A stretch of DNA of 23,706 bases. It comes from a virus. Position numbers and translations under genes: made by a program. Within the stretch, counting starts at the first letter, position 1; the number at the start of each line of letters is the position of its first letter. The DNA lies in IMG/VR virus record IMGVR_UViG_3300020057_000154, positions 1-23,706 of that record; one strand, given 5' to 3'. Below the pieces are notes generated by a model that saw nothing but the letters and a program-made list of their open reading frames with translations, made no database searches and was not told the origin of the DNA. Below, one piece after another: positions 2,427 to 19,937 of this stretch.

Positions 2427-2672
2427 GTGGCAACACTCGCAGAGAAGCAGGCCGAACTGGTCCTCGCGAAGGACGCGCTCAACGCAGCGCGGCTGGCCCA
2501 GTCCTATGGTCAGGGTGATCGCAGCCTCCAGCGGGCGAGCCTGAAGGACCTGGAGTCCCACGTCTCCCGGATCGCTCGGGAGGTTGACGAGCTCGCCGCT
2601 GTGGCGGCTGGTGCACGGAACCCCCTGTTTGTCACGGCCTCCTACCGGCAGCCCGGATGGGATACCGAGTGA
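2427..2672 (+). CDS. gpW/DUF6148-like head-tail connector protein
   Basis: An 81-residue, mostly helical protein starting at GTG. The central stretch QSYGQGDRSLQRASLKDLES followed by HVSRIAREVDEL matches the pattern of DUF6148/gpW-type proteins (a helix, a GQ..gdRsl turn, then a second long helix). Proteins of this kind lie between terminase and portal in lambda-type genomes; lambda gpW closes the head-tail junction. No strong ribosome binding site is visible, and the gene overlaps the portal gene by 16 bases, so coupling to the portal is likely. The family assignment rests on the short motif and the position. Confidence 0.7.
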   Translation: MATLAEKQAELVLAKDALNAARLAQSYGQGDRSLQRASLKDLESHVSRIAREVDELAAVAAGARNPLFVTASYRQPGWDTE

Positions 2673-4186
2673 AGGCGGTAGACCTTCTCGGCCTGGTCAT
2701 GCCGCGCACCGCCGCAAAGTACCTGATGGGCCGTTACCAGTTCCAGCAGGCCCAGCGGCTGTATGAGGGCGTGAGTTCGTCCCAGTACCGACCCACCATT
2801 GCCAACCGCACCAGCGGCGACGGGGTCATGAACATCGCCGGGGGCCGCCTCCGGGAGTATTCCAGGGAGCTCGAGGAGAACCACGATCTGGTGGTCTCGG
2901 TCTTTGACGATCTGGTGAACAACGCCATCGGTGAGGGGGCCCGGGTCCAGCCGATGGTGCGGATGGCTGACGGCACTCTGGCTGAGGACTTTAACGACTC
3001 CCTGGGCGAGTTGTGGACGAAGTGGGGCCAGGACCCGGAGACCACCGGTGAGTTGGCCTTTCCGAGTGTCGAGCGGCTGGTTGCTCGCTGCATGTTCCGG
3101 GACGGCGAGATCTTTGTGCAGAAGGTCATCGACGGGCGCTACCCGCACCGCACTGACCTGCGCTTGGCTTTGGAGTTGATCGAGGCTGACTTCTGCCCGT
3201 TCGACTACCAGGACATTTCTCGCAATGTCCTCCACGGGGTAGAGAACAACGCCTGGAACCGGGCGACGGCCTTTTGGCTGTGGAAGAACCACCCGGGCGA
3301 CCCGCTGAACCTGTCGATCATGCCCCGGGCCGAGGATTTGAAGCGCGTTCCGGCGTCGGACATGTTGCACATCAAGTTCAGTCGTCGCCTGCGGCAAAGG
3401 CGGGGGGTGCCGATCATTCACGCGGTCCTGAACCGGATGCGGGACGTGAAGGATTACGAAGAGTCCGAGCGGATCGCGGCCAAGGTGGCGGCGGACATGA
3501 CGGGTTTCATTAAGCGCACGGCCGAGTACAACGGGCCGACTGAAGTGAACGCCAGCGGCAATCGGGAGTTCAGCCTGCAGGCGGGGGCGATCTTCCAGCT
3601 GCAGCCGGGTGAAGATGTGGCGACGATTGCCAGCAACCGCCCGAACGCGGGACTGGAGAAGTTCCGCAACGCGATGCTCCGGGCGGTTGCTGGCGGGACG
3701 GGCACGCGGTACTCGTCGATCTCCAGGGACTATAACGGCACATACAGCGCGCAGCGGCAGGAGCTGGTTGAGGGCGCGATTGCTTACCGGGCGCACTTCG
3801 CCTATCTGGTGTCGCGGTTTCACCGGCCGGTTTACGAGCAGTTCATCGCCCAGGCCATGCTCTCGAAACAGCTGGGCCGGATTCCCCGCGGGTTGGACAT
3901 GACCACGCTGAACCGCGTGGACTTCCGCGCTCCCGCCCTCCCGTGGATCGACCCATCGAGTGAGGCGAAGGCCTACGCGACGCTGGTCGAGGCCAACCTT
4001 GAGAGCCGCGCTGAGATCATGCGTCAGCGGGGGCGCGACCCGGTGAAGGTGATCGAAGAGATCGAGGAAGAGCGGGCCTCCGGTCTGTCGGCGGTGATGA
4101 TTCAAAAGGCGGCCGCCTCGGCCACGCCAGGACAGGCCAGTGAAGATGCACAGCCGGGAGAGACCGACAGTGCGGCCGCCGCTTAA
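2657..4186 (+). CDS. Portal protein, lambda family
   Basis: Dodecameric ring at the head vertex through which DNA enters and to which the tail joins. The N-terminal region (RLREYSRELEENHDLVVSVF then DDLVNNAIGEGARVQP, residues about 65-105) is characteristic of the lambda gpB-type portal family. The later GVPIIHAVLNRMRDVKDYEE segment and YSSISRDYNGTYSAQRQELV are also typical. The length of 509 residues is normal. The last 40 residues are a charged and Ala-rich tail (GQASEDAQPGETDSAAAA). The chosen ATG overlaps the preceding gene; no good ribosome binding site is seen, and the ATG at 2699 is an alternative. In lambda a protease gene follows; here a fibre-like module intervenes. Confidence 0.93.
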   Translation: MGYRVKAVDLLGLVMPRTAAKYLMGRYQFQQAQRLYEGVSSSQYRPTIANRTSGDGVMNIAGGRLREYSRELEENHDLVVSVFDDLVNNAIGEGARVQPMVRMADGTLAEDFNDSLGELWTKWGQDPETTGELAFPSVERLVARCMFRDGEIFVQKVIDGRYPHRTDLRLALELIEADFCPFDYQDISRNVLHGVENNAWNRATAFWLWKNHPGDPLNLSIMPRAEDLKRVPASDMLHIKFSRRLRQRRGVPIIHAVLNRMRDVKDYEESERIAAKVAADMTGFIKRTAEYNGPTEVNASGNREFSLQAGAIFQLQPGEDVATIASNRPNAGLEKFRNAMLRAVAGGTGTRYSSISRDYNGTYSAQRQELVEGAIAYRAHFAYLVSRFHRPVYEQFIAQAMLSKQLGRIPRGLDMTTLNRVDFRAPALPWIDPSSEAKAYATLVEANLESRAEIMRQRGRDPVKVIEEIEEERASGLSAVMIQKAAASATPGQASEDAQPGETDSAAAA

Positions 4187-5741
4187 TCACCTGATGCTGA
4201 ATGAGGGCGCGCTGGCGGATGACTTCGCCACGATCCTGGGGTATCGCACCAGTCATGCGGGGCTGGTGCAGTCGGGGGACGTTCCCTCGTCCTTCTACGA
4301 GCCGTCGGCGTGGGCGTGGTTCGACGGTAAATCCACGCTGCTCAAGACTGCCGCTCTGACTGGCGCGAGTGCCACGGTAAATACCCATTTGTTTACCTGC
4401 TGGTTCTCGCCGGAGGGGGATAACTTGATTCTCGGTTTGTTCACGGCAAAGGAAACCGTCTCCGGGGAGTTCCCGTTTTACTCCAACCGGGTTAACGCAG
4501 TAGCCCCTAACAATCGCATGAAGATTGTTTCAAATATTGCCAACCTCTATACCACCAGCACCGAGTATGCGAATGCTGCCGCCCCGGTGAATGCCAATCG
4601 GTATTTCATGGCGGCGTGGGTCGATCAGGTGAACTTGACAGGGACCATTGCGATCTTCAGCGGGACGGCGTGGCACGTTGTCAGCGGCGTGACCGGGGCG
4701 GGGGTCGCGTGGAATTTCACGCTGGTTAATGAGATCGGCATTGGCCGCCACTTTGGTGTGGCCGGGACGCACTGGTGGGGGCGGATCGCTAACATTTGGT
4801 TCAAGCAAAACGTAACAATTGACCTGACTAATGCCGCTGCTCGCAATGCGCTGCTGGTAGACCCCGGCGCTGCTGGGAGCGGCCTGGGACTCGGAGCGCC
4901 TGAGATTTTCTTTAGTGGTGCCGCCGACAAGTACAACACGCTCACGAACGATGGCAGTGGCGGGGCCTTTAACACGTTGCTGGGCCTTGTCTCGTCCAGT
5001 CCCTACACCCAGCGGCGGGTCGCCCCGACGAATACTCAGGCGTTGAATATCGCCGCCCTGACGGGGCTGGATAGTCCGTTGACGGCGTTCACGCTGTCGG
5101 TGTGGTTCAAGTCGTCTGCCAGTCCGACTACGACGACAGTGCTGTTTGCCTTGTACGGCGGCACTGGCGTTTTGAACTTGCAGAAAAGCGCCGACGCCGC
5201 CGGGAACAGACTGCATCTAGCCATCACGGATTCCCTCAGCGCAGTCGTCACGGCTGCTGACGGGCCAGCGGCGCAAAGTACGCGCACCAGTGTTGCTGTA
5301 AATGACGCGGCACTGCACCACGCTTACATCGTCGCGAGTATCTCTGGCGATTACGTCGAGGGCTACGTTGATGGCGTTCTAGCCTTTACCAACAACCCGG
5401 TTAGCAGCGCCGGGATGGTTGACTTCTCCACCCACGTCGGCGCTCGGATCGGCGAAAGCGCCTCTGCAGCCCTCCGCTGGGTCGGGAGTATTGGGGACGT
5501 GTGGTTTGCTGATGCCATCCCTTCAAGTCACGCCACGCAAGCGGCGCGGTTGGCGCGGGCTGTTGAGATGTACAACGCCGGATCGCCGCCACTGTTGAGC
5601 GGCTTTGGGCGCGAGTGGTACGGCACGACACCACTCCTGTGCGTGGGCTTTGGGACCAATGCAGCGAGCTGGAACACCACTGCGGTCAATCTGGGCACGG
5701 GTGGGACGCTAACCACCACCGGGACGTTTGTCCTCGAATGA
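4146..5741 (+). CDS. Protein with two LamG/concanavalin-like domains (putative fibre or receptor-binding)
   Basis: About 531 residues, apparently built from two tandem copies of one unit. Each unit is a beta-rich jelly-roll-like domain: the first includes TVNTHLFTCWFSPEGDNL and ends at WWGRIANIWF; the second includes FTLSVWFKSS, HAYIVASISGDYVEGYVDGV and WVGSIGDVWF. Each is followed by a linker resembling PEIFFSGAADKYNTLTNDGS / PLLCVGFGTNAASWNTTAVN. The strand pattern and the xWFKS and GYVDG motifs are typical of LamG/concanavalin-like domains in phage fibres, which often bind glycans. No secretion signal is seen. The ATG at 4146 has AGGACAGG about nine bases upstream and overlaps the portal end; a GTG at 4140 and an ATG at 4194 are alternatives. 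The placement between portal and capsid is odd, so the product could be a head decoration rather than a tail part. Confidence 0.65.
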   Translation: MHSRERPTVRPPLNHLMLNEGALADDFATILGYRTSHAGLVQSGDVPSSFYEPSAWAWFDGKSTLLKTAALTGASATVNTHLFTCWFSPEGDNLILGLFTAKETVSGEFPFYSNRVNAVAPNNRMKIVSNIANLYTTSTEYANAAAPVNANRYFMAAWVDQVNLTGTIAIFSGTAWHVVSGVTGAGVAWNFTLVNEIGIGRHFGVAGTHWWGRIANIWFKQNVTIDLTNAAARNALLVDPGAAGSGLGLGAPEIFFSGAADKYNTLTNDGSGGAFNTLLGLVSSSPYTQRRVAPTNTQALNIAALTGLDSPLTAFTLSVWFKSSASPTTTTVLFALYGGTGVLNLQKSADAAGNRLHLAITDSLSAVVTAADGPAAQSTRTSVAVNDAALHHAYIVASISGDYVEGYVDGVLAFTNNPVSSAGMVDFSTHVGARIGESASAALRWVGSIGDVWFADAIPSSHATQAARLARAVEMYNAGSPPLLSGFGREWYGTTPLLCVGFGTNAASWNTTAVNLGTGGTLTTTGTFVLE

Positions 5742-5761
5742 AGAACGGGAGTCGCACCTAA

Positions 5762-6508
5762 ATGGCCGTTGGTAAATTCACCGACCAGCTCAACCCGATT
5801 GCCTATGCGGCAATTAACCCGGCCGCCGACCTGGACATGGTCTGGGACGACTCAGCCAACGAGCTGGCGTACATCGCGGCGGTCGAGCGGATCAAGCGGA
5901 GTCTCGGCTCGGCTGATGTGGCGTGGATGACGGCTCTGGCTTTGTCCGGGGTCGACGCCGCCGCTGACAAGTTCATGATTTTTGACAACAGCGTCACGGG
6001 CTTCCGGGCCATGACGGCTTCGGAACTGCTGAACGTCACCTTTGCTGGCGCAGCCCACAGCGGGATCACGGCGCTGGCGAACATGGCGGCTGTCGATGGT
6101 GCCGCCGATTACCTGATCGTGTTCGACAACAGCGCGCTGGGGTGGCGGAAGATTCTGGCGTCGGAGTTCATCAACCGGCTGCTGCCTTCGACCACCACCG
6201 TGGTGACTTCAACGCCCACGACCCGCACCGCTGGCGAGAGCGGCCGCCGGTTCACGAATTTCGGCGCGACTCAGATCACTGAACACGACCTGCCAGCTGG
6301 GGCGGCGGGCTTGCGGTACTCGTTCATGCGGCAGGCTGATTTCGCCGTCCGGGTTGATCCGAACGGCTCTCAGATCATCGCCGGGGGTGCAGCCGGGAAG
6401 TATCTGGAGATCACCAGCACTCGCGGCCAGGTTGATCTGGAGTGGCTGACGGACAGCGGGACTTGGGAAGTAACTGGCGGCAGCGCCGTCTTTGCCTTTG
6501 AGGCGTAA
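5762..6508 (+). CDS. Repeat-containing fibre or tailspike-adaptor protein
   Basis: A 248-residue protein with three degenerate repeats of 46-47 residues: AADLDMVWDDSANEL (from 21), AADKFMIFDNSVTGFR (from 67) and AADYLIVFDNSALGWR (from 114). The D..S turn repeat occurs in phage fibre and structural proteins. A Thr-rich linker (143-157) leads to a C-terminal beta domain (164-243) that resembles residues 37-113 of the next gene's product. This suggests the two proteins share an assembly or docking domain. It lies 20 bases after the LamG-like gene and three bases before the tailspike gene, so the three are likely co-expressed. Function is inferred from context; no enzymatic motif is seen. Confidence 0.6.
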   Translation: MAVGKFTDQLNPIAYAAINPAADLDMVWDDSANELAYIAAVERIKRSLGSADVAWMTALALSGVDAAADKFMIFDNSVTGFRAMTASELLNVTFAGAAHSGITALANMAAVDGAADYLIVFDNSALGWRKILASEFINRLLPSTTTVVTSTPTTRTAGESGRRFTNFGATQITEHDLPAGAAGLRYSFMRQADFAVRVDPNGSQIIAGGAAGKYLEITSTRGQVDLEWLTDSGTWEVTGGSAVFAFEA

Positions 6509-6511
6509 AAC

Positions 6512-9043
6512 ATGTCACTTGTAGCAAAAGACATCCAGAATTTTAGAAGGCATCTCGTTGGGCTCAGCCTAACCAGCGACACCACTCTTACCGTTTTACA
6601 GCTGGACATGCTGGTTAGTAACACGGGGGCTACTGCCACAGTCACCGCGACACTTCCCGTTGCTACGGTCGGGATGGGCCTCACCGCCTCACGGCAAGCC
6701 GCCCACGCCTTTCGCCTGAAGCCCGCCACTGGCGGGTTCATCCTCGGCGGGGCGGTGAACGACTATCTGGAAATGATCTCTGCCGGCGAGGTGGTGCTGT
6801 ACTGCCACGCCGCGGGGACGTGGACGGTGGTTTCTGGCAGTGCTACTTGGCGTTTGCAGAACGGCCACAGCAGCGTTTCCGAGTACCTCGGCTTTTACAA
6901 CATCAAGGACTTCGGGGCGCTTCTTAACGGCATAGCCAACGACTCCCCTGCTGTAAATGCGGCGAATGATATGGGCCTTGCTAATAAACGGCCGGTGTTC
7001 TACCCGGCTGGGAATATTAAGGTCGATGACCCTGTCGTCATCAAAGCGCCGATGATCTGCGCTGGCGGTAACACGCCGCGAACTAACTGGGTGATACCGG
7101 AATCCGGCACACGCTTTGTCAATGGCGGCATCACCGGCTCTACGAGAAGCATTAGCGCGATCACTGTTGGCACTACCACAACCATAACAACGTCGGCAGC
7201 GCACGGGTTTACATCCGACGTCGTCGTGGGGCTGTCTGGGATCGTCGGGACCACGCAGCTTAATGGCGTCACTAATGAGATCGTTGTGACCTCGACCACG
7301 CAGTTCACCGTCAGGGACTTGGACTCTACCGGGTTCGGCGCGTGGGTGTCTGGCGGTACAGTGCAGTCCCTCCCAGGGGTGCTGACCGTTGCGTCGGGGT
7401 CGGCGGGAGCGGCTACGGCTCGTGGTTTTTACGTCCAAGGCGGCTTCGCTGTGGATGGTGCCGGGTACGCCTGCACGGGGTTCCACGCCACAGGGAACCT
7501 GACCGTAAACCTATTTTCGCGATTCCGCCTTGAGAATATCTTTGTCACTGGCTGCGTGTCCGGCTACGACCTCAATGGTTTCACCGGGGTTCTATCCAAC
7601 TGCTACGCCTTGCTGAACACAGCCGTTGGGTTGACCCTTCGTACGGCGAACTCTGTGCAGGTCATTGGCGGTGAGTATGTCCCCGCTGACCTGGCAACAA
7701 GCTGGGGAGTGAAGGTTATCTCTGCCGAGCAGCTAAAGTTCATCGGTGCAAACATTCAGGGCCAACCGGATTGGCTTGGAAACGGCATTGATGTTGCGGA
7801 GGGCTGCAACCAGGTTTCCATCTCAGCGTACTTTGAGCACATGGCAGGCACTGCTTCGGTTGTCGGCTACCACGCACGGATTGGCGGTATAAACCGATAC
7901 GGCGGCCCGCCGACTAACCTGCTGGAAAACTGCACGCAGGGCGTGTACTTCACTGACAGCTTTTCGAATGCCAGCATTGCTTCAGCATCCGTGTACGGCA
8001 GTCTCGGCCCGCGAGTTTACCTGGGCAACGTCACTGGCGTTGACCTTGGGTCTATGGCGATGGTTACGAAGGGCCTGGAGGTAAGCGAGTATGCAAACGA
8101 CATCAGCGGCGCAATGGTGTCTACGGCTATCCTTCGGGGCGCGACAACAGCGCCCAACAACTACCCCCAATCGTTAATGATTGCCGACGCTTCGGGAAAG
8201 GTCGGACGACCGGCGTTGTCGTACCTTCCGAATCCAAGCGCCGTGGGGTCAGTCGGGGCGGCGATTCGGGGCTACCAATCGGTTAACCCAGGCTCGGGCA
8301 TAACGGTTGCTGCAGAGACGGCGATCAGCCGCGACGGGAAGTCGTCTATCAGGATCACAAGGGACGCTGCACAGGTTGGCACGTTCTCACGATGCAGCTT
8401 CTTCCCGTTTGGGCAGGATGATCTGATTACCCAAAAGGGCACGGCGATCCTTACGGGGTGGATCTACGTTCCCACCGGGGTTGACGGCACACCGAATGAC
8501 GCTTTTAAACAGAACGGAAACGCGAATCTGCGCTGGCCGAGAGTTGGGTTTGAGTTTGACGACGGTGCATTAAAGACTAGTCATTACGCACTGTCTGGCG
8601 GCTCTGGCGCTTCCTTAACGGGCTACTACAACTTGAGCGGCTGGACCCGGTTTTTTTGCTTTAAGCCGATAGCTGACTTTGGCGTCATCACGCGACTGGG
8701 CTGGTCGGTAATGCCGATTGACGATCAGGCTCCGGTAATCAGCGGGGCAGGGCAAAGCCACAGCGTCTACATCGCTGACGTTTCTCTGTGCGTCTCACCG
8801 CAGTCGTGGGCGGATGTGATGGCGGGTCGGTTCAGCCTCGCCCATGAAGCCGGGATATTCATTGGCCGCAACTTCATGGTGGCCGATTCTGCCGCGCCCA
8901 CCAACGTAAACACCTACTGGCTAAAGGGCGACCGGGTACTCAATACCGGGGTAGTTGCTGGCGGCTCGCCGGGTTGGGTGTGTACGACCTCTGGGGCAGG
9001 CGGAACGGCAGTGTTCAAGACGGAAGCAACGGTGGCCGCATGA
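6512..9043 (+). CDS. Tailspike, pectate-lyase-like beta-helix protein
   Basis: Probable receptor-binding tailspike of 843 residues, likely trimeric and possibly able to cleave surface polysaccharide. Residues 37-113 form a beta domain shared with the upstream protein. Residues 128-172 carry the classic pectate-lyase-3 entry (YNIKDFGALLNGIANDSPAV then PVFYPAGNIKV). Residues about 213-286 look like an inserted FCCH-type beta module (AAHGFTSDVVVGLSGIVGTT, then QLNG and SGGTV). A right-handed beta-helix follows (about 290-580). The C-terminal third looks like a carbohydrate-binding beta-sandwich and ends with GDRVLNTGVVAGGSPGWVCT, a terminal motif seen in phage tailspikes. A GAGG lies upstream of the ATG. 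Enzyme specificity cannot be read from the sequence. The gene lies before the capsid gene instead of after the tail tip. Confidence 0.82.
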   Translation: MSLVAKDIQNFRRHLVGLSLTSDTTLTVLQLDMLVSNTGATATVTATLPVATVGMGLTASRQAAHAFRLKPATGGFILGGAVNDYLEMISAGEVVLYCHAAGTWTVVSGSATWRLQNGHSSVSEYLGFYNIKDFGALLNGIANDSPAVNAANDMGLANKRPVFYPAGNIKVDDPVVIKAPMICAGGNTPRTNWVIPESGTRFVNGGITGSTRSISAITVGTTTTITTSAAHGFTSDVVVGLSGIVGTTQLNGVTNEIVVTSTTQFTVRDLDSTGFGAWVSGGTVQSLPGVLTVASGSAGAATARGFYVQGGFAVDGAGYACTGFHATGNLTVNLFSRFRLENIFVTGCVSGYDLNGFTGVLSNCYALLNTAVGLTLRTANSVQVIGGEYVPADLATSWGVKVISAEQLKFIGANIQGQPDWLGNGIDVAEGCNQVSISAYFEHMAGTASVVGYHARIGGINRYGGPPTNLLENCTQGVYFTDSFSNASIASASVYGSLGPRVYLGNVTGVDLGSMAMVTKGLEVSEYANDISGAMVSTAILRGATTAPNNYPQSLMIADASGKVGRPALSYLPNPSAVGSVGAAIRGYQSVNPGSGITVAAETAISRDGKSSIRITRDAAQVGTFSRCSFFPFGQDDLITQKGTAILTGWIYVPTGVDGTPNDAFKQNGNANLRWPRVGFEFDDGALKTSHYALSGGSGASLTGYYNLSGWTRFFCFKPIADFGVITRLGWSVMPIDDQAPVISGAGQSHSVYIADVSLCVSPQSWADVMAGRFSLAHEAGIFIGRNFMVADSAAPTNVNTYWLKGDRVLNTGVVAGGSPGWVCTTSGAGGTAVFKTEATVAA

Positions 9044-9045
9044 AC

Positions 9046-9074
9046 GCGTTAATAGCCGCACCCGTTATTAACGC
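9046..9074. other. Inverted repeat between tailspike and capsid genes
   Basis: GCGTTAATA (9046-9054) and its exact reverse complement TATTAACGC (9066-9074) flank an 11-base spacer. The repeat starts just after the tailspike stop codon and lies 25 bases before the capsid ribosome binding site. There is no T-run after it, so a simple intrinsic terminator is unlikely. It could be a protein-binding operator or an RNA hairpin separating expression of the two genes. Confidence 0.45.
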
Positions 9075-9109: not shown

Positions 9110-11146
9110 ATGCCAGACGGTTCAAAGCGATCAATCAAGGGCGAGCAGACGCGGACGTTCCGACTGGAGCGAGCGGCTGACCCCAAGCAATTCACAGCAG
9201 CACTTTCGAGCGAGTTGCCGGTAGAGCGGTGGTTTGGCTCAGAGGTACTGCGTCACTCTGCCGAGTCCGTGAACATGGACCGGGCCTCACGCGGTCTGCC
9301 GCTGCTGTTCAACCACGACACCAGCCTGCCCATCGGCCGGGCGCGGAACGTGCGCTTGGATGGCAACAAGCTGCGGGCCGAGATCGACTTCTCGCCCAAC
9401 TCAGAACTCGGCAGGCAGATGGCCGCTGATGTCGAGGGCGGGTTCCTCGACGAGGTCTCCATCCGCTACAGCATCGACGAGTACGAAACGACCACTGACA
9501 AGGCGGGGCAAGACACCGTCACCATCACGCGCTGGACGCCGCTTGAAGCGTCCATCGCCCCAGTACCGGCTGACCACACGGTCGGCATCGGCAGGAGCCG
9601 GGATTCCGGCAAGCAACCCAAGGAGAGACTCATGGACGACGAGAAAGATACCGGCGACGCCGGTTCGACGGCCGGTAATCTGGCTGTCGTCACGGAGTTG
9701 CGCGGCAAGCGCAAGGCCGACGAAGAGCGGGGCGCCAAGAATGCCATCAAGGGCGAGCGGGAGCGCCTCGCGGAGCTGAACGACATCTTCGGGTCGGTCG
9801 ATACCCGCTTCCGTGGTGACGACTTCGATTCACTTCGCGAGAAGTGCATCGTGGACGGCATCCGGGCTGATGGCGCTCGCAAGCTGCTGCTTGACCTGAT
9901 CCAGGGCAACCTGCCGGAGCAGACCCCCTCGACGCGTCAGGTGGCTGACGACATCAACGGTGGGACTCGCGGCCGCGATCCGTTCGTGACGGCGGGTAAG
10001 GACGGCGGGGACAAGATGGTTGAGGGCATTTCCCGCTCCATCGAGGTTCGCGCCGGCCTGGTCGACAAGGCAGAAGCCGCCAAAGACTCTGGGAGCGAGT
10101 ACAAGGGCCTGTCCATGGTTGAGCTGGCCCGGGCGTTCGCCCTGCGTCAGGGCATGAACGTGCGCGGCCTGTCGCCCTACCAGATGCTGGGCGTGGTCCT
10201 GAAGGGTGGCGGGCGCCGCGATATCGGCTCTGGTACGGAGGACTTCACCGGCATCCTGGCCAACGTCTCCAGCAAGAGCCTGCTCAAGGGCTGGGAGACC
10301 GCTGCCACGACCTACCGCCAGTGGGTTCGGATCGGCAACCTGTCCGATTTCAAGCGGGCGAACCGGACGGGTCTGTCCGGCATGGCGCTGCTTGACGAAG
10401 TACCGGAAAGCGCTGAGTACAAATACGGCAAGCCCTCGGATCGGACTGAGTACATCACGGCTATCAAGTACGGCAAGCTCTTCAGCATCTCGCGTGAGGC
10501 CCTGGTCAACGACGACCTGAACGCCTTCACTCAGGTGCCGATGATGATGGGCCGGGCTGCTGACCTGACCATCAACAAGGCGGTCTATGACTCGCTGACC
10601 AGTGCCTCTGGCCTTGGGCCGACGTTGAATCAGGACGCCGTCGCCTTGTTCAATTCTGCGACCCACGGCAACTATGACGCCACGTCTGGTGGCATCACGG
10701 TGCTGAACCTCGAAGTGGGCCGGGGAAAGATGGCATTGCAGGCTGATCCGACCAATGCCATGCCTCTGAACATCGTCCCCCGGTACCTGCTGGTGCCGTC
10801 GGCGTTGACTTCAGCGGCACGGGTGCTGGTGGCCAGCGAGAAGGACCCTGTGGGTTCCACTGGTGCTATCGGTGGGGCGACCACGCCCAACCAGTTCTAC
10901 AACGCCTTCACGGTAATTTCCGAGGCCTACCTGGACGGTCGGACCAATGGCGCCACGGCGTGGTACCTGCTGGGCGATCAGAACATGACCGACACCTACG
11001 AGGTCGGCTTCCTGAACGGTCAGCAGACTCCTTACCTGGAGTCGAAGAACGGCTGGGACGTTGACGGCGTTGAGTACAAGGTGCGGATCGAGGCCGGCGT
11101 GGCCGCTCTCGACTTCCGTGGCGTGTACCGCAAGAGAGGCGCGTAA
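9110..11146 (+). CDS. Prohead protease / major capsid protein fusion
   Basis: A 678-residue polyprotein. Residues 1-165 are a prohead maturation protease: His69 in LPLLFNHD and Ser117 in DEVSIRYS are the expected catalytic residues, and WTPLEASIAPVPAD (142-155) is the usual C-terminal signature. Residues about 175-300 are charged and helical, fitting a scaffolding/delta domain. Residues about 360-678 are the major capsid protein, of the Mu gpT-like group within the HK97 fold (SDFKRANRTGLSGMALLDEV, then KYGKLFSISREALVNDDLNA and AVALFNSATHGN). Self-cleavage between the parts during head maturation is expected from the family. An internal start at 9632 may supply extra capsid subunits. Downstream lie two hairpins and the decoration gene. 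Confidence 0.9.
   Translation: MPDGSKRSIKGEQTRTFRLERAADPKQFTAALSSELPVERWFGSEVLRHSAESVNMDRASRGLPLLFNHDTSLPIGRARNVRLDGNKLRAEIDFSPNSELGRQMAADVEGGFLDEVSIRYSIDEYETTTDKAGQDTVTITRWTPLEASIAPVPADHTVGIGRSRDSGKQPKERLMDDEKDTGDAGSTAGNLAVVTELRGKRKADEERGAKNAIKGERERLAELNDIFGSVDTRFRGDDFDSLREKCIVDGIRADGARKLLLDLIQGNLPEQTPSTRQVADDINGGTRGRDPFVTAGKDGGDKMVEGISRSIEVRAGLVDKAEAAKDSGSEYKGLSMVELARAFALRQGMNVRGLSPYQMLGVVLKGGGRRDIGSGTEDFTGILANVSSKSLLKGWETAATTYRQWVRIGNLSDFKRANRTGLSGMALLDEVPESAEYKYGKPSDRTEYITAIKYGKLFSISREALVNDDLNAFTQVPMMMGRAADLTINKAVYDSLTSASGLGPTLNQDAVALFNSATHGNYDATSGGITVLNLEVGRGKMALQADPTNAMPLNIVPRYLLVPSALTSAARVLVASEKDPVGSTGAIGGATTPNQFYNAFTVISEAYLDGRTNGATAWYLLGDQNMTDTYEVGFLNGQQTPYLESKNGWDVDGVEYKVRIEAGVAALDFRGVYRKRGA
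9620..9625 (+). promoter_or_regulatory. Internal ribosome binding site inside the protease-capsid gene
   Basis: AAGGAG lies six bases before an in-frame ATG at 9632 (codon 175), just where the protease domain ends. Spacing and match are near ideal, better than at many gene starts in this window. Confidence 0.6.
9632..11146 (+). CDS. Putative separately translated scaffold-capsid product from an internal start
   Basis: In-frame initiation at ATG 9632 would give a 504-residue protein starting MDDEKDTGDAG, with the helical scaffold-like region and the whole capsid domain but no protease. The start lies exactly at the protease boundary and has a strong ribosome binding site (AAGGAG, six-base spacing). 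Lambda uses the same device: Nu3 scaffold is made from an internal start within the C protease gene. A capsid needs hundreds of shell subunits but few proteases, so such a product would solve the stoichiometry problem of a fusion gene. This is an inference from the sequence; expression is not shown. Confidence 0.5.
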   Translation: MDDEKDTGDAGSTAGNLAVVTELRGKRKADEERGAKNAIKGERERLAELNDIFGSVDTRFRGDDFDSLREKCIVDGIRADGARKLLLDLIQGNLPEQTPSTRQVADDINGGTRGRDPFVTAGKDGGDKMVEGISRSIEVRAGLVDKAEAAKDSGSEYKGLSMVELARAFALRQGMNVRGLSPYQMLGVVLKGGGRRDIGSGTEDFTGILANVSSKSLLKGWETAATTYRQWVRIGNLSDFKRANRTGLSGMALLDEVPESAEYKYGKPSDRTEYITAIKYGKLFSISREALVNDDLNAFTQVPMMMGRAADLTINKAVYDSLTSASGLGPTLNQDAVALFNSATHGNYDATSGGITVLNLEVGRGKMALQADPTNAMPLNIVPRYLLVPSALTSAARVLVASEKDPVGSTGAIGGATTPNQFYNAFTVISEAYLDGRTNGATAWYLLGDQNMTDTYEVGFLNGQQTPYLESKNGWDVDGVEYKVRIEAGVAALDFRGVYRKRGA

Positions 11147-11238: not shown

Positions 11239-11607
11239 ATGCCTTTGGTAGGAAATGGAAAGAGGATGAACGTCACCCTGTCGGGTACGGTCGTCAAAGA
11301 TACGGTTTTCGCGGCTGCGGCTGGCGGGTTCGCTGGCATCTACATGAAAAGCGGCGTGAGCGGTGCCGTGGTGCCGGTGGCCCTTGAGGGCACTTTTACG
11401 CTGTCAACGGCCACCACGGCCGCAGCGACCAAGGTGTTTGCCGTGATGGACTGCATTTATGCCGTCATTGCGACGGGTGCCATCACCAACGCCCGGGCGA
11501 CGGGGACGGCTGTGCCTTTGGGCTTCAACGCCGGCGCTGCGACCACCAGCGCCGCCGGTGCCCAGGTGGTGCAGGTCAGGCTGGCCCGGTTCGGTTCGGC
11601 GGCGTAA
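11239..11607 (+). CDS. Head decoration/stabilisation protein, DUF2190-like
   Basis: A 122-residue beta-rich, Ala/Gly/Thr-rich protein. The pattern (VVKDTVFAAAAGGFAGIYMK, VVPVALEGTFTLSTAT, then ATGTAVPLGFN) resembles DUF2190 capsid cement proteins, in which small beta domains sit on the capsid surface. It follows the capsid gene directly and has a good ribosome binding site (AAGGAG before the ATG). Like other decoration genes it follows the strong hairpin, so its transcript level may differ from that of the capsid. Confidence 0.72.
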   Translation: MPLVGNGKRMNVTLSGTVVKDTVFAAAAGGFAGIYMKSGVSGAVVPVALEGTFTLSTATTAAATKVFAVMDCIYAVIATGAITNARATGTAVPLGFNAGAATTSAAGAQVVQVRLARFGSAA

Positions 11608-12376: not shown

Positions 12377-12817
12377 ATGGCTACGGTTGCAGTTCGAGGG
12401 TGTGCGGGCAAGATTTTTGCTGGCAGCGTGCTGACGGCTACTGGTGCGACGGCTGAAGTCGCCGAGGTCACGGAGTGGAGCTTTGAGAGCACGGCAGAGC
12501 AGCTCGATGCGTCGTACATGGGAGCCTGCACGAAAGAGTTCGTGGCGGGGCCGGTGGAGACCCAAGTGCAGCTGACCTGTAACTGGGCGCAGAACCCGGT
12601 CGCTAGTGCTGACGCGGAGCAGGTACTCCTGGCCGCGGTTGGGACCAACGTCAAGCTGGTGCTATTCCCGGCCGGCACTACGACTGGGTTCCGGAAGTAC
12701 ACCGCTCTGAGCGCCCTGATCCAGTCGGTACGGATCGGTGCGGCGGTGCAGGGCTTCGTCACCGCTTCGATGGGGCTGTTCGTCAACGGGACTATTACCG
12801 CTGGCACGGCCACCTGA
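12377..12817 (+). CDS. Major tail tube protein
   Basis: A 146-residue protein with alternating strands typical of siphovirus tube subunits: AEVTEWSFESTAEQLDASYM near residues 33-52, VETQVQLTCNW, VKLVLFPAGTT, and a C-terminal ASMGLFVNGTITAG. The acidic TEWSFES..E strand is common in these proteins. It has a good ribosome binding site (AAGGAG) and precedes the frameshifted chaperone gene, which is the standard position of the tube gene. No extra Ig-like domain is appended, unlike lambda gpV. Confidence 0.75.
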   Translation: MATVAVRGCAGKIFAGSVLTATGATAEVAEVTEWSFESTAEQLDASYMGACTKEFVAGPVETQVQLTCNWAQNPVASADAEQVLLAAVGTNVKLVLFPAGTTTGFRKYTALSALIQSVRIGAAVQGFVTASMGLFVNGTITAGTAT

Positions 12818-13152
12818 TGAGCAGCTTCGCTTCACAAGTGGGTCGGGCCTACGCCGGACGGCAGGCGCGCACGGTCAGGGTGCCGGAGTGGGATCTCACC
12901 ATCCATGTGTTTCCTATCACCCTGGGCCAGCTCTCCCGGATCCAGGAGGAGACGGACCCGATGAAGCGGCTCGTGCGCATCATCATGGTGCGGGCCAAGA
13001 AGGAGGACGGCGAGCCGCTCTTCGACTTGGAGGACGCTGAAGCTTTGGTGGCGAAAGGCGTCGGGGACTACGGCCCGGACGTGGTCATGCGGGTGTGTGC
13101 TGAACTGGGTGACGTGGAGTTTCCAGACGAGGCCCAAGCCGAAAAAAACTGA
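12817..13152 (+). CDS. Tail assembly chaperone, gpG-like (short form)
   Basis: A 111-residue protein, helical in its second half (PITLGQLSRIQEETDPMKRL, then VRIIMVRAKKEDGEPLFDLE). The position between tail tube and tape measure is that of lambda gpG, which coats the tape measure during tail assembly. It overlaps the tube gene by one base (TGATG). Its last codons sit in a run of seven A and form the slippery heptamer, so a fraction of ribosomes make the longer gpGT form. Confidence 0.8.
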   Translation: MSSFASQVGRAYAGRQARTVRVPEWDLTIHVFPITLGQLSRIQEETDPMKRLVRIIMVRAKKEDGEPLFDLEDAEALVAKGVGDYGPDVVMRVCAELGDVEFPDEAQAEKN

Positions 13153-13295
13153 GGGAGGATCCGCTGCGCCTGCAGATGCACGACTTAGGTGGGCTTCTGC
13201 ACAAGACAATCGGCGAGATGGAGTTAATGCCGGTTGAGGAGTTTTTAGGGTGGCAGGCATGGTGGCGGATCCGGCATGACAGATCGAACAATTGA
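12817..13295 (+). CDS. Tail assembly chaperone, gpGT-like -1 frameshift product
   Basis: A -1 shift at A AAA AAC (13143-13149) joins the 111 residues of the short form to 48 more, read from 13149 to the TGA at 13293-13295, giving 159 residues. The added segment (LREDPLRLQMHDLGGLLHKT, then IGEMELMPVEEFLGWQAWWR) has the E-L-M-P..E...W pattern of T domains, which bind the tape measure and tail tube. No separate start with a good ribosome binding site serves this segment. Its end overlaps the tape-measure start by 20 bases. Both the slippery site and the T-like peptide are seen directly; the shift is inferred. Confidence 0.85.
13143..13149 (+). promoter_or_regulatory. -1 programmed frameshift site A AAA AAC
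   Basis: The heptamer is in the correct phase (codons GAA AAA AAC TGA) and the zero-frame stop follows at once, which favours slippage. A weak six-pair stem TGCAGA/TCTGCA (13171-13176 with 13196-13201) lies 21 bases downstream and may or may not contribute. Confidence 0.85.
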
Positions 13296-15132
13296 CTGGG
13301 TATTCCGAGCGACCGACAAGACGGGCGCGGCGTTCCGGTCGGTAGATTCCAAGCTGGCGGGCATCACGAAGAGCCTGCGTACCTTCGCTGGGTTCGCGGG
13401 CTTCGCTGCCGTGGCGGCAGGCATTGGCACGCTCACCAAGTCCCTGGTCGACATGGGCTCGCAGCTGCAGGACGCCAGCGAGAAGCTGGGCGTGTCAGCC
13501 GAGACCCTGCAGGTGCTCAAGTTCGCCGCTGAGCAGACTGGCAGCTCGTTCGACGCCTTGCAGGCCGCACTGGCCTTTAACACCAAGCTGACCGGCAGCG
13601 CCTCACGGGGCAACAAGGAGGCCGCCGAGACCTTCCGGCTGCTGGGGCTGGACGCGAAGAAGTTCGCCGACCTGCCCATCGACAGGCGGCTATCGGTCAT
13701 CGCCCAGCAACTCAGTCAGGTGCAGGACCCGGCGCTGCGTCTGGACCTGACGCTAAAGGCACTGGGTCGCGGGGGTGCCGAGCTGGCACCTTTGCTTGCC
13801 CAGGGCGCGGCAGGACTGGCTCAGTTCGAGACGCAACTCCGCAGCACCAACTCGATCCTTTCCGATGCGCAGGTCAAGGCTCTGGACGATGCCGGGGATG
13901 CTTGGGATGCCTTTGGGCTGCGCTTAAAAAGCGCGTTCGCCCCCGCGTTGATCAAGACTATCGACCTGCTGACCAAGGCTGGAGCGGCTGCAAAGGCCCT
14001 TAATGAAGGCCGGCTGTTCCTGACTAATAGCGGGTTCGAGATCAAGGAGCCGCGCCGGCGAGTGACGGAATCGCGAGGCCGCAAGAGCGCCCCACTGTCG
14101 GAGGAAGAAACGGCGGCCATCAGTGGCGTCCCCGGCAAGAAGTCGCTCGATGCTGTCCGGGAGACGCTGGCGAAGAATGACGCGCTCTTCGACCAGATCA
14201 CTGCCAAGGGCAACGCCCGGGCGGCAAAAGCTGCCGCTGCTCAGCAGGTCATTCTGGACCGGGTGGCTGCCATCACCACCAGCAATCTGACCCCGCAAGA
14301 GGATTACTTCGCCGGCCTCGACGAGGTGGCGAAGCTGCAGGCCACGGCGGGGCTGTCTGCTGAAGCGGCAAAGCGACAGGTTGATGCGCTGGCCGCCGCG
14401 TTCGCAGAGAACCAGAAGCAGTTATACGAATCGTCTGAGGCCGGTAGTGTGTACATCCAAAGGCAGAAGGACATAAAGGCCGTTGTTGAAAGCGTCATCA
14501 CTCCGGTGCAAGCGTATTGGAATGAACTCGACAGGCTGAAGACGCTGCAGGCTGAGTTGAGCCCAGAAGTTTATGGGCTGGCCGTGACTAATGCCGGGCT
14601 GGCGTACAAGAGCGCAGCTACAAATATCAGTGAAGGTAATGACGAACTGGCCGACTCCACGAAGCGCCTACTGCAGGACATCAAGACGGCCGCTGACGGC
14701 TTCGCTCGGGATCTGACCGACGCATTCTTCGACAGCACCAAAAGCATCGGTGAGATGTTCGAGCAGCTGGCGGTCACGATTGCCAAGGCGCTGTTCACTA
14801 AGACCGTTACCGATCCGCTGATCGAAGGCATCCTCGATTCGGTTGACTTGAAGTCGCTGTTCGGCGGGGCCCGGGCGGCAGGCGGGCCCGTGGGTGGCGG
14901 CAAGGCTTACCTGGTCGGCGAGCGCGGCCCTGAGTTGTTTGTCCCGGGTGGCAGCGGTCAGATCATCCCGAACGGTGCCGGCGGCGGCGGCCAGCCGATC
15001 CAGGTGAACATGACCATCACGAGCGTGGACCCGCAGACCGCCGCCCAAACCATCGCGGCCCAGGAGCGGCTGATAACCGGGATGGTGCGGCGGTCGATGC
15101 AACGGGCGGGCGTTAGGCCGCAACTGGCATGA
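13276..15132 (+). CDS. Tail length tape measure protein
   Basis: A 618-residue, largely helical protein. The N-terminus (DWVFRATDKTGAAFRSVDSK, then LAGITKSL and a hydrophobic AGFAGFAAVAAGIGTLTKSL near 38-57) and the following EKLGVSAETLQVLKFAAEQT are typical of tape measures. The C-terminus carries GGPVGGGKAYLVGERGPELF, a well-known terminal motif of lambda-type tape measures, and a basic end (ERLITGMVRRSMQRAGVR). At the usual rule of about 0.15 nm per residue the tail would be near 90 nm. It follows gpG/T and overlaps the next gene by four bases. Confidence 0.93.
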   Translation: MTDRTIDWVFRATDKTGAAFRSVDSKLAGITKSLRTFAGFAGFAAVAAGIGTLTKSLVDMGSQLQDASEKLGVSAETLQVLKFAAEQTGSSFDALQAALAFNTKLTGSASRGNKEAAETFRLLGLDAKKFADLPIDRRLSVIAQQLSQVQDPALRLDLTLKALGRGGAELAPLLAQGAAGLAQFETQLRSTNSILSDAQVKALDDAGDAWDAFGLRLKSAFAPALIKTIDLLTKAGAAAKALNEGRLFLTNSGFEIKEPRRRVTESRGRKSAPLSEEETAAISGVPGKKSLDAVRETLAKNDALFDQITAKGNARAAKAAAAQQVILDRVAAITTSNLTPQEDYFAGLDEVAKLQATAGLSAEAAKRQVDALAAAFAENQKQLYESSEAGSVYIQRQKDIKAVVESVITPVQAYWNELDRLKTLQAELSPEVYGLAVTNAGLAYKSAATNISEGNDELADSTKRLLQDIKTAADGFARDLTDAFFDSTKSIGEMFEQLAVTIAKALFTKTVTDPLIEGILDSVDLKSLFGGARAAGGPVGGGKAYLVGERGPELFVPGGSGQIIPNGAGGGGQPIQVNMTITSVDPQTAAQTIAAQERLITGMVRRSMQRAGVRPQLA

Positions 15133-15809
15133 CCAAGCTCTATGTCAATCCGGCCCTCGACTGGCTCCTGGTCTCTGGGGTCGATGACTTCCTGTTGCTG
15201 GACGAGACCGAACGCACCCCCCCGGACTACCCGTCAACCCCGGCGCCGATGACTGCCACGATCACCAGCATTAGCCCGACCTACGTCAGCGTGACCAACA
15301 GCCTGAAGCGTCAGGTGCGCAGCCGCGGCGCGCAGGCGTGGCAGATGGACCTGTACTACGGGGCAATGACCCGGGCGACCTTCGCGCCGCTGTGGGCCTT
15401 CCTGATCAACCAGTCGGGACAGTTCAAGAGTTTTACGGTGGCGCTGTCGGCCTTCACCCCGCTGGGATCTCCTAGTGGGACGCCGCTGGTGAATGGCGCG
15501 CTGCAGACTGGAGTGACGCTCGCGACTGACGGGTGGACGCCCTCGCAGACGGTCCTCAAAAAGGGTGACTGGATTCAGTTTGAGAATGACGCGAAGGTGT
15601 ACTCGGTCATTTCGGACGCGATCTCGAACGGCTCCGGGCAGGCCAACCTGAGAATCTTCCCCGCGCTGCGGAAGTCGCCCGCCGACAACTTCACGGTCTA
15701 CACCGATCCGCTGTTTACGGTCGCAATGGTGACGGACCAGCTGCCCGTGGACTTCGATCAGTGCCTGAAGGCCCGGGGCTTCTCGATCACCTTTCAGGAG
15801 GTCCTGTGA
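15129..15809 (+). CDS. Minor tail protein, gpM/distal-tail-like
   Basis: A 226-residue protein immediately after the tape measure (ATGA overlap). The stretch VTNSLKRQVRSRGAQAWQMD followed by LYYGAMTRATFAPLWAFLIN and QSGQFKSFTVAL has the pattern of distal-tail proteins that form the ring joining tube to tip: a beta domain recording the residues around an R-x-R-G...W motif, then a helix and the GQxxSF strand. Position corresponds to lambda gpM. The end FSITFQEVL is also usual. It contains a ribosome binding site (AGGAGG) for the next gene near its 3' end. Confidence 0.68.
   Translation: MTKLYVNPALDWLLVSGVDDFLLLDETERTPPDYPSTPAPMTATITSISPTYVSVTNSLKRQVRSRGAQAWQMDLYYGAMTRATFAPLWAFLINQSGQFKSFTVALSAFTPLGSPSGTPLVNGALQTGVTLATDGWTPSQTVLKKGDWIQFENDAKVYSVISDAISNGSGQANLRIFPALRKSPADNFTVYTDPLFTVAMVTDQLPVDFDQCLKARGFSITFQEVL
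15796..15801 (+). promoter_or_regulatory. Ribosome binding site deciding the gpL-like start
   Basis: AGGAGG lies four bases before the GTG at 15806. This supports GTG 15806 (MSQRGATGAF) over the upstream in-frame start at 15761, which would overlap the preceding gene by 49 bases. Confidence 0.75.
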
Positions 15810-16417
15810 GTCAGAGGGGGGCCACCGGCGCGTTCCTCGACGAGATCGCCAAGGCGGCGAATCGCCCTGTCCATCTGCTCGAAGTGGACTTTAACCCGTA
15901 CATCTACCTGACCGACGCGGCGGTCAATCTGACCTGGAATGGCAACATCTACCTGGCTTCCCAGTGGCTGGGATTTTCGGGCATCAGTGAGACCAGTGAG
16001 CTGCTGGTAAACAGCGTGACCGTGAGTCTGTCCGGGGCCGACCAGCAAGTGGTGGCGCTGCTGCTGCAGGAGTCATACCTCAATCGGCGGATGAAGATTC
16101 GGACGGCCATGCTCAATGAGGCGCTCCAGGTCATTGCTGACCCGGTGCTGATCTTCGACGGGCGCATGGATCGCCCGACCATCGCCGTGGACCCTGACAA
16201 CGGCCAAGTCGCGTGCTCGGTAGAAGGGATCAGCATCTGGACGGATTTTGACCGCCGGCCGGGGCGCCACTCCAACGATGCGGAGCAACAGAATCTATTC
16301 CCCGGGGACAAGGGCTTCGCTCAGGTTTCTGTGATCCCTGACCAGATCTTCTGGGGCAGGGTGCGGACGGTCGAGAAGCTGACTTCAACGTCGTCCCGTG
16401 GGCGGACGCGGATATGA
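15806..16417 (+). CDS. Tail tip hub protein, gpL-like
   Basis: A 203-residue protein. Motifs such as LLEVDFNPYIYLTDAAVNLT, the RRMKIRTAMLNEA segment, DPVLIFDGRMDRP and the C-terminal RRPGRHSNDAEQQNLFPGDK are typical of hub proteins that lie between the distal-tail ring and the central tip. The position matches lambda gpL. Lambda gpL binds an iron-sulfur cluster through four cysteines; this protein has only one Cys, so no such cluster is expected. It overlaps the next gene by four bases (ATGA). Confidence 0.7.
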   Translation: MSQRGATGAFLDEIAKAANRPVHLLEVDFNPYIYLTDAAVNLTWNGNIYLASQWLGFSGISETSELLVNSVTVSLSGADQQVVALLLQESYLNRRMKIRTAMLNEALQVIADPVLIFDGRMDRPTIAVDPDNGQVACSVEGISIWTDFDRRPGRHSNDAEQQNLFPGDKGFAQVSVIPDQIFWGRVRTVEKLTSTSSRGRTRI

Positions 16418-16845
16418 CCCCGGAGATTGCCGTAAACATCTGGGCTCGCAGTGTCATTGGGCTCCCCTTCGCTTGGGGTGAGACGGACTGCGGGGTGCTG
16501 ACCTTAAAGGCGCTTTCCCAGCTGACCGGCACTAACTGGGTCACTCCCTTTGGCGGCGCGTGGCGCGACGAACGGGAGGCGCTGGCTCACTTCGAGCAGA
16601 TGATTCCGTCTCAGGTGCTGCAGGAAAGGGGCGCCGTAGAGGTGTCACCGTCGGCCGTGGTCTTTGGCGACGTGATTACCGTCCCCGCCCCGCCGTGGCC
16701 GGAACAGTGCCACTTCGTTTTCGGCCGCTTTTGCTTGGTTAGTGACATCAAGTCCGGCGTGCGTCTGTTGCCGTCGCGTTTGTTTACTCGACTTCCCGGG
16801 GCCCGGGTATGGAGGGTGGCGCCATGCCTCAAGCCATCCCAATAG
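16414..16845 (+). CDS. NlpC/P60-like tail tip protein (DUF6950-like)
   Basis: A 143-residue protein with PFAWGETDCGVL near residues 18-29. In NlpC/P60-type peptidases the Cys of this motif is the nucleophile, and the later CHFVFGRF segment (near 98-105) may supply the His. Lambda gpK has an NlpC/P60 part too, joined to a JAMM-type domain that is absent here. No gpI-like gene follows. It may cut peptidoglycan during infection or serve only as a structural piece of the tip. The gene overlaps the gpJ-like gene by 22 bases. Confidence 0.65.
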   Translation: MTPEIAVNIWARSVIGLPFAWGETDCGVLTLKALSQLTGTNWVTPFGGAWRDEREALAHFEQMIPSQVLQERGAVEVSPSAVVFGDVITVPAPPWPEQCHFVFGRFCLVSDIKSGVRLLPSRLFTRLPGARVWRVAPCLKPSQ

Positions 16846-19067
16846 TCGCAGCGGCTTTTGCCAGCACGGCAGCGGCGGCGGCCGGCTATGGCTTAATTGC
16901 GCAAGCAATCATCGGCGGCATCGTGGCCTTTGGGTCATCAAAGGTGCTGGGTCTGGATAAGGTGCCAGACATTCCTGACCCCGGCGTGCAGGCAAACGTG
17001 ACGGGGACCGTGGCCCCCATCCCGATCATCTACGGCACCCGCCGGGTGGGCGGGGTGATTGCCCAGTTAGTGACCACTGGCAAGGTCTCGTCGTCGATCA
17101 CCATCCCGATAATCCTGCCCGGCGGCGGCACCTACCCGACCGACGTCGAGACCGACAACAAGTTCCTGAACCTGATCCTGTGCTGGGCTGAGGGGGAGAT
17201 CGAGGGGGTGACCACCGTCTACTTCGACAACCTCGAGAGCACCTCCACGGAGTTCACAGGGCGGTTCTCGGTGAACCACTACGCCGGCACGGACACCCAG
17301 CCGGCGAGCGCGCCATTTCTTGCCGCTCTGGCGCGCACCTTCACGCCCGCATCGGCCGCGAAATTGTGGAGCACCAGCCACACCCTGAGCGGCGTGGCTT
17401 ACAGCTATTTCAAACTTGAGTACGATAATAACGCCTGGGTGACCGGCATCCCCGTGATCACCGCCGACATCAAGGGCCGGAAGGTTCTGGACTTGCGCAC
17501 CAGTACCTGGGGATGGTCTGACAACCCCGCGCTGATCATCTACGACTACCTGACCAATGCCCGCTTCGGGCGGGGGCTTGCCACCAGTGAGCTGGACACC
17601 GCCAGCTTCATCGAGGCCGCCAACTACTGCGACCAGAACATCTCCATTCTGACGCCGGTCGACACCTTCATCGGCCCGCCGATTATGGTGATCCAGCAGC
17701 GTTATCGGTGTGACGCAATCCTCAGCCCGGATGACACCACCCTCGACAACACCAGGCTGCTGCTGGGGACCTGTCGCGGGGCGCTGGTGTTTTCGGGAGG
17801 TCTGTACCGCTTGAAGCTCGACAAGCCGGAGGTGCCCACCTTCGCGCTGACCGAGGACAACATCATCGGCAACTGGAACATCTCTCTGGAGAACTCCCAG
17901 TCGCGGCTCAACCGGGTGCACGTCCAATGGCGCAACGCGATCAAGAAGGACCAGGACGACTACGCCATTTTGGATTCGGCGACCTTCTTGGCAGCCGACA
18001 ACAACCAGGTCCTCGAAGTAAAGATTGACCTACCGGCCACGACAAACAGGTTTCGTCCGATTCAGATGGCCGGCATGGTCTTGCGCCAATCCCGCTACTC
18101 ATTGCAAGTCGAACTGACCTGCACGATTGCGGGACTCCAGTGTGAGGTGTTCGACGTGGTGACTGTCACGCACGAACTGCCGGGCTGGACTGGCCAGCTG
18201 TTCCGGGTGATGGGAATCACGCTGGAGAGCGAGGACGTGGTGCGGCTGCAGCTCCAGCAGTATGCGGATGAGGTCTATGACCTGGACAGCCAAAATGACC
18301 AGGACAGCCCGCCGCCGACCACACTGCCGGATCCGCGACTGGTGCCGGGGGTGCAGGTGTTTGAGATCTACCCGTTCACCAACATCAACCCTGACGGCTC
18401 GATCAGAACCTTCTTCCAGCCCGTCTGGAGATCTATCTACGACAGCCCGAACCTGGAGAGCTTCCGGTTGCGCTTCCGGCCGGTGGGGGCTGATGTTTGG
18501 CAGTTCATCGAACTCCCAGTCGATGCGGTTCTCTCTGAGGGCATCGCCGACCGCTACCAGACGATCGACATCGACGTCAGAGGCGGCGTGCTCTACGAGA
18601 TGCAAATCCGCTGCGTGAATCGGCTGGGCGTGGAAAGTGCGCCTTACACTAATTCCGGCCTCATCATTGGCGGGTTGCTGCCCATCAGGCCAACCAGCGT
18701 GCGAGCGGCTGGGCACGTCACCGGCGTGGTCCTTACCTGGACGAAAGGGACGGGAGCCGTCTCGACCCAGGTCTACCGGACCACCGGCGGCGTTGATAAC
18801 TTCAACAGCGGGAATGCGGTGCTTATCGCCCTGACCGAAGGCAACAGCCACATCGACTCTATGGCCTGGGGTATCACGGCCAACTACTGGCTGCGGTCCT
18901 ACAACGCGGCCGGCCTAAGCGTCACGCAACCGGCCGCCACCAGTTTGAGTCTGGTCGCTCTCTCCGGTCTGCAAACCTACGCCAGCGACGCCTTGGCGGG
19001 GGCGGCTGGGCTCCTCACGGGCGATACCTACCTCGACGCCAGCGGCACTCTGAAGGTGAAAGCATGA
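16824..19067 (+). CDS. Central tail tip/host specificity protein, gpJ-like
   Basis: A 747-residue protein forming the tail-end plug and baseplate core. The N-terminus is Ala-rich and hydrophobic (VAAAFASTAAAAAGYGLIAQ). The following PIPIIYGTRRVGGVIAQLVT, LNLILCWAEGEIEGVTTVYF, and WSDNPALIIYDYLTNARFGR segments are hallmarks of the gpJ/phage-tail-3 family. Around residues 540-700 it has FN3-like beta domains (SVRAAGHVTGVVLTWTKG). It ends soon after LTGDTYLDASGTLKVKA, without a long fibre-like tail, consistent with a separate tailspike elsewhere. GGAGG eight bases before the ATG at 16824 favours this start over the ATG at 16809. Confidence 0.9.
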   Translation: MPQAIPIVAAAFASTAAAAAGYGLIAQAIIGGIVAFGSSKVLGLDKVPDIPDPGVQANVTGTVAPIPIIYGTRRVGGVIAQLVTTGKVSSSITIPIILPGGGTYPTDVETDNKFLNLILCWAEGEIEGVTTVYFDNLESTSTEFTGRFSVNHYAGTDTQPASAPFLAALARTFTPASAAKLWSTSHTLSGVAYSYFKLEYDNNAWVTGIPVITADIKGRKVLDLRTSTWGWSDNPALIIYDYLTNARFGRGLATSELDTASFIEAANYCDQNISILTPVDTFIGPPIMVIQQRYRCDAILSPDDTTLDNTRLLLGTCRGALVFSGGLYRLKLDKPEVPTFALTEDNIIGNWNISLENSQSRLNRVHVQWRNAIKKDQDDYAILDSATFLAADNNQVLEVKIDLPATTNRFRPIQMAGMVLRQSRYSLQVELTCTIAGLQCEVFDVVTVTHELPGWTGQLFRVMGITLESEDVVRLQLQQYADEVYDLDSQNDQDSPPPTTLPDPRLVPGVQVFEIYPFTNINPDGSIRTFFQPVWRSIYDSPNLESFRLRFRPVGADVWQFIELPVDAVLSEGIADRYQTIDIDVRGGVLYEMQIRCVNRLGVESAPYTNSGLIIGGLLPIRPTSVRAAGHVTGVVLTWTKGTGAVSTQVYRTTGGVDNFNSGNAVLIALTEGNSHIDSMAWGITANYWLRSYNAAGLSVTQPAATSLSLVALSGLQTYASDALAGAAGLLTGDTYLDASGTLKVKA

Positions 19068-19420: not shown

Positions 19421-19674
19421 CCGCCGACACTCTGACCGGGATTTACATCACCGTCCTCATTGCAATGGTGGGCGCTCTTTTGGCTTGGGTAAGGGGGACG
19501 GACGTGAGGCGGCTGGAAACTATGGAAGAAAACACGAAAAACCTGTCGGCGAAAATAGATGACCTCGCTTTAGAAACCCGGCACAACCTCACCGAAGCCA
19601 CCAACCGGCTTTCGGCAAAGATCGACGCTCACCACCAAGAGGTCATGCGGATTTTACTGGAGACGAAACGATGA
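19417..19674 (+). CDS. Small membrane-anchored coiled-coil protein
   Basis: An 85-residue protein. One membrane segment (IYITVLIAMVGALLAWV, residues 9-25) is followed by a charged coiled coil with two similar units, NLSAKIDDLALE and RLSAKIDAHHQE. The start is chosen at 19417 because it makes an ATGA overlap with the preceding gene; a longer reading from 19138 would lie inside that gene. The layout resembles an i-spanin, but a better spanin pair lies downstream, so it may instead be an accessory to the holin or an antiholin. Confidence 0.7.
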   Translation: MTADTLTGIYITVLIAMVGALLAWVRGTDVRRLETMEENTKNLSAKIDDLALETRHNLTEATNRLSAKIDAHHQEVMRILLETKR

Positions 19675-19925: not shown

Positions 19926-19937
19926 TGGAGGTGCTGA

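Follow-up and report, generated by a model that had tools for sequence, protein, structure and literature searches.

A putative polysaccharide-targeting receptor-binding cassette in an inherited slot between the portal and capsid genes of a lambda-type phage lineage

We call the 23,706 bases analysed here, a virus record from IMG/VR, the window. Its open reading frames and family matches outline a lambda-type structural operon. The operon starts with a small terminase, a GpA-type large terminase, gpW, the portal gene, three cassette genes and a fusion of the prohead protease with the major capsid protein (MCP). It continues with a weak cement candidate and with genes for head closure, tail terminator, tail tube, chaperone and tape measure. 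Behind the tape measure lie a Dit-like protein and two tip proteins, then gpJ followed by lysis genes. The features relevant to the cassette are:

2657-4186, plus strand: portal protein of the lambda B family, bordering the slot on the left; PF05136 E=3e-81, phrog_21
4170-5741 (the ORF reaches 4140), plus strand: LamG/concanavalin-like protein; PF13385 E=2e-9, which passes the curated cut-off
5762-6508, plus strand: adaptor with three repeats of ~47 residues and a C-terminal domain of ~100 aa; named from its repeats and its likeness to the spike and to a gene of contig L346
6512-9043, plus strand: spike; PF16190 E=2e-7, PF12708 E=0.048 (below cut-off), likeness to a protein of contig L004
9046-9074, no strand: inverted repeat with perfect 9-bp arms (9046-9054 and 9066-9074), located between the spike and capsid genes
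9110-11146, plus strand: prohead protease fused to the MCP, right border of the slot; PF04586, PF25209, phrog_4523
11239-11607, plus strand: weak candidate for a capsid decoration/cement protein, where such a gene ordinarily lies; PF09956 E=0.005, below cut-off
16809-19067, plus strand: short tail-tip gpJ homologue (752 aa), directly followed by non-fibre genes; phrog_31 E=3e-63
19064-20812, plus strand: membrane protein, holin/spanin-like ORFs and M15 endolysin after gpJ, at the site of fibres in relatives

Both the ORFs and the family matches confirm the order that an earlier note had read from the letters, i.e., portal, LamG protein, repeat adaptor, spike and capsid gene, all on the plus strand. 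The same note described an interrupted portal-protease pair. The interruption stands, while the partner of the portal has to be corrected to a fused protease-capsid gene (PF25209 E=1e-48, PF04586 E=8e-11, phrog_4523 E=8e-136). The GpA terminase, gpW, PF05136 portal and S78 protease-MCP fusion follow each other in the expected order, and the slot between the last two is the sole difference from the head module of the family.

The cassette genes are closely packed, and the first begins within the 3' end of the portal gene. A second, independent contig (L003), about 99% identical to the window, has the same gene order, and the layout is therefore not an assembly error. It is highly improbable that the cassette is such an artefact or a foreign fibre segment that entered a single phage recently and by chance. 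The GC content of the spike region is lower (0.57-0.60 versus 0.62-0.64), as might be expected of an insertion, but all frames are open, on one strand and joined by tight junctions, and adaptor-containing slots recur in L346, L257 and L256, at 61-69% portal identity. A one-off insertion is refuted by L003 and by these adaptor-bearing relatives, and is possible only for the LamG gene, which is missing from the slot of L346. The arms of the inverted repeat behind the spike gene are kept in L003, where one loop base is changed, and no T-run follows it.

For the LamG gene, the start at 4146 given in the earlier note is possible, but a GTG at 4170, preceded by a GGGAGA motif at a distance of about 7 bases, matches the starts of the homologues in L257 and L258 better. 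The N-terminal ~45 aa of the protein recur in slot proteins of L257 (36% identity, E=1.5e-5) and L258 (30%, E=3e-4), whose C-terminal parts differ from that of the window. Such an N-terminus on varied C-terminal parts fits an anchor plus an exchangeable head. The L257 protein with this N-terminus also has SGNH-hydrolase-like motifs by eye, without a family match.

The adaptor repeats are located around residues 23, 69 and 116, and the C-terminal domain is 37% identical (E=3e-8) to residues 36-116 of the spike. The spike itself consists of this adaptor-like domain (20-117), a weakly matched pectate-lyase-type beta-helix start (about 128-185), an E1_FCCH-like insert (224-285) and a C-terminal region. 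In L257 the adaptor and a beta-helix spike are fused into a single 710-aa protein (33% identity to the window and E=3e-30 for the adaptor part, 33% and E=4e-12 for the spike part), and adaptor and spike therefore probably act together. From the shared domain and the L257 fusion, we infer that the two are best read as parts of one appendage. The pectate-lyase label of the earlier note is weak when taken from the window alone, where PF12708 stays below cut-off, but it is backed by the fused L257 homologue, where the same family scores E=2e-8, above cut-off. A protein of locus L334 (4791-6647) that resembled the adaptor by eye was dropped, as a repeat-unit HMM found no adaptor among the post-gpJ proteins of relatives.

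The C-terminal ~560 residues of the spike are 54% identical to a protein of the podovirus contig L004 (9929-11920), which lacks the N-terminal ~115 residues of the spike and sits in a fibre module downstream of a DNA-ejection gene. Database searches with the cassette proteins returned little else. No match to the LamG protein, spike or adaptor was found by tblastn in 50,697 phage records, phmmer searches of the PDB gave weak E1 FCCH-domain and chance matches only, and the adaptor profile gave weak partial matches only in 385 and 369 bacterial genomes of two classes. The AlphaFold models are poor, with a mean pLDDT of 44 for the adaptor and 32 for the spike, and lend no support to the predicted fold.

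To see how common the gene order is, we scanned 278 loci with profiles of the portal and of the capsid fusion. These loci came from viral contigs, bacterial genomes and phage records, and they are the best-matching part of a larger set and not a random sample. The two genes are adjacent (gap <300 bp) in 256 of the 278 loci. The gap exceeds 300 bp in 21 loci and 1 kb in 16, four being copies of this phage. The gaps of L232, L241 and L186 were discounted, either for a partial portal ORF or because they contain no long ORF on the same strand. All characterised relatives checked have portal and capsid fusion adjacent, namely Bordetella PBb001, Rhodobacter RcKvothe, Synechococcus MinM1, Pseudomonas LPPA33 and F10, Hafnia yong2 and Citrobacter Chris1. 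F10, RcKvothe and PBb001 share the homologous terminase-gpW-portal-capsid fusion order with the window, but have nothing between the portal and the fusion. In the open-access literature searched, no precedent is described for fibre genes between portal and capsid, which is not proof of absence.

The picture is different close to the window. At portal identities of at least 50%, all five measured loci have a gap >1 kb (L346 added, copies removed and the near-identical L003 kept), whereas below 50% the gap exceeds 300 bp in only 13/262 loci. The contigs of L256, L259 and L261 stop before the capsid gene, but another gene begins after the portal, i.e., an adaptor gene in L256 and unnamed genes in L259 and L261. 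Together with the five measured loci they form one clade in the portal tree (SH-aLRT 100). Neighbouring groups are of mixed slot states, and the slot label switches at least seven times across the tree. The order, which the earlier note had taken to be unusual, is thus unusual across the broad family, but not in the nearest clade, where a comparison of gene order finds the slot filled in 6/6 readable relatives with at least 50% portal identity (L256, L257, L258, L259, L261 and L346). Within this clade, that is the outcome which the earlier note had named as one that would refute its claim. Since every readable near relative fills the gap, the slot appears to be an inherited arrangement of the lineage with swapped contents and not a relocation specific to this phage.

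The contents of the slot vary within the clade. The nearest full match is L346, with portal (61% identity), adaptor (49%), beta-helix spike, a second spike that is 26% identical to the C-terminus of the window spike, and capsid fusion (52%). A polysaccharide theme recurs, with LamG in the window, a PF14099 polysaccharide lyase in L258 and PF12708 in L257, while the slot genes of L259 and L261 are fibre-like by eye only. Farther users of the slot have unrelated contents, such as collagen-like proteins (L016, L284), an LtfC-like protein with small beta proteins (L280) and large proteins (L095, L316). The gene-order data thus indicate that the slot is inherited in this clade and was probably filled independently outside it. 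Judged in this way, the arrangement is a lineage trait, a modular slot with exchangeable contents, rather than the result of one relocation event.

The region after gpJ bears on what the cassette does. As the earlier note had observed, nothing fibre-like follows gpJ: no fibre gene was found in the last 4.6 kb of the window, which hold a small membrane protein and lysis-type genes, although the 23.7-kb contig is a genome fragment and fibres might lie elsewhere. Within the nearest clade, the window alone is sequenced past gpJ. Among slot-empty relatives, all six that are readable (L266, L268, L180, L111, L143 and L235) have fibre-family genes soon after gpJ. The gpJ homologue of the window has 752 aa, compared with 832-1258 aa in these six and 832-1319 aa in relatives. 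Moreover, the LtfC-like slot gene of L280 (11593-11973), from a fibre-attachment family, has a 46% homologue after gpJ in the slot-empty L266, so that one family uses both positions. Fibres after gpJ in slot-empty relatives, none in the window and an LtfC-like gene in both places make up the pattern expected if a receptor-binding cassette moved. The small membrane protein right after gpJ (19064-19420) is 44% identical to the product of L004 13293-13700, at the end of the podovirus fibre module. On the minus strand at 21714-22418, the window also has several small ORFs with CPxCG zinc-ribbon motifs, which look like paralogues of each other.

We therefore favour, with some reservation, the reading that the three genes form a polysaccharide-targeting receptor-binding cassette in a fixed slot of the lineage, which replaces the post-gpJ fibres and is most likely tail-mounted. 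The adaptor would dock onto the virion via its repeats and present its C-terminal domain, and the spike would attach through its N-terminal domain, which is related to that C-terminal domain. The beta-helix and C-terminal part of the spike might then bind or cleave surface polysaccharide, and the LamG protein could be a second lectin-like arm that is anchored separately. The cassette would thus take the place of the fibre genes found after gpJ in relatives, and because it stands in for them, the tail is its most likely site in the virion, even though it is encoded among head genes. Between the two options raised in the earlier note, a relocated cassette or head decoration, the shared fibre families and the post-gpJ fibres in relatives favour relocation, though not as a single event.

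Compared with the post-gpJ fibre module of lambda-type phages, the cassette is alike in its exchangeable C-terminal parts, and spike and LtfC-type families of the slot occur in fibre modules too. The cassette differs in lying upstream of gpJ (4170-9043 versus 16809-19067), with lysis genes following gpJ. In its putative beta-helix start, and in the PF12708 match of its L257 homologue, the spike would resemble pectate-lyase beta-helix tailspikes such as phi29 p12 and the Sf6 tailspike. However, the spike of the window is linked to a repeat adaptor with its own gene and comes with an additional LamG protein, and its fold and activity are predicted only.

Phage phi29 has pre-neck appendages (PMC11476376) made of p12, likewise a beta-helix tailspike-type protein, and the cassette could by analogy encode neck or collar appendages near the portal. 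It adjoins the portal gene, and phrog_4775, a family of pre-neck appendages, gives a weak match to the L257 spike (E=1e-7). This match spans only the generic beta-helix start, though, and the proximity of two genes says little about the proximity of their products in the virion. We consider a neck location quite improbable.

It is also rather unlikely, though less so, that the cassette decorates the head, with the adaptor on capsid pentamers or hexamers, the spike and LamG protein pointing outward for a first reversible contact with capsule or another glycan, and gpJ making the final contact. The genes do lie inside the head module, and head structures of this kind are known. The head spikes of RcGTA (Rcc01079/Rcc01080, GhsA/GhsB) bind capsule (PMC7296036, PMC10218006), and the capsid turrets of HFTV1 (TBP/THP) carry carbohydrate-binding and deacetylase-like domains (PMC12494034). 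Both are functional parallels only, the former as a base plus a fibre contacting capsule and the latter as a base plus a carbohydrate-active head protein. The three proteins have no sequence match to RcGTA chains in the PDB, and no TBP or THP chain was matched by phmmer. The RcGTA genes have another location, and HFTV1 is an archaeal virus whose turrets have a demonstrated capsid location. In addition, the hydrophobic IALGLGLGL-like N-terminus by which the RcGTA head fibre docks into its pentameric base is absent from the window. One protein of the L004 fibre module (6999-7766) begins with MIGIGIGISPGW (MIGIGIGIS), which resembles that N-terminus, and the L004 module need therefore not be purely tail.

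L316 speaks for the head, as it combines a slot cassette with a protein at the tail end that is probably diversified by a DGR. One of its slot genes matches phrog_1645, a "virion structural, head and packaging" family. Since L316 has both, a filled slot does not in every case take over from receptor-binding proteins of the tail. On the other side, the post-gpJ fibre genes of relatives are absent from the window, and the spike C-terminal family (L004) and the LtfC-like family (L266) both occur in fibre settings. These shared families favour the tail for the cassette proteins, although sequence alone does not place them in the virion. A broader idea, that the whole lambda-type siphophage lineage bears polysaccharide-binding or -degrading head or neck spikes from a modular slot and uses these instead of tail fibres for first contact, we regard as speculative and doubtful.

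In phages with lambda-type heads, the search for receptor-binding genes usually turns to the region after gpJ. In this lineage, looking only there would miss the putative receptor-binding genes. A slot with exchangeable spikes and an often recognisable adaptor may thus be a handle on host-range genes in metagenomic phages, and it makes testable whether the position of fibre genes in the head operon reflects display on the head. In L094, the same slot holds a gene of another kind (4006-5190). It adjoins the portal gene, and its 394-aa product has an HHLE region reminiscent of metalloproteases. A phage with a 5.9-kb slot insert, L337 (IMGVR_UViG_3300043425_000757), carries a probable diversity-generating retroelement at 12663-15821. 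It comprises a 447-aa protein with a variable-repeat-like end, followed downstream by a template-like copy, and an ORF that resembles an RT.
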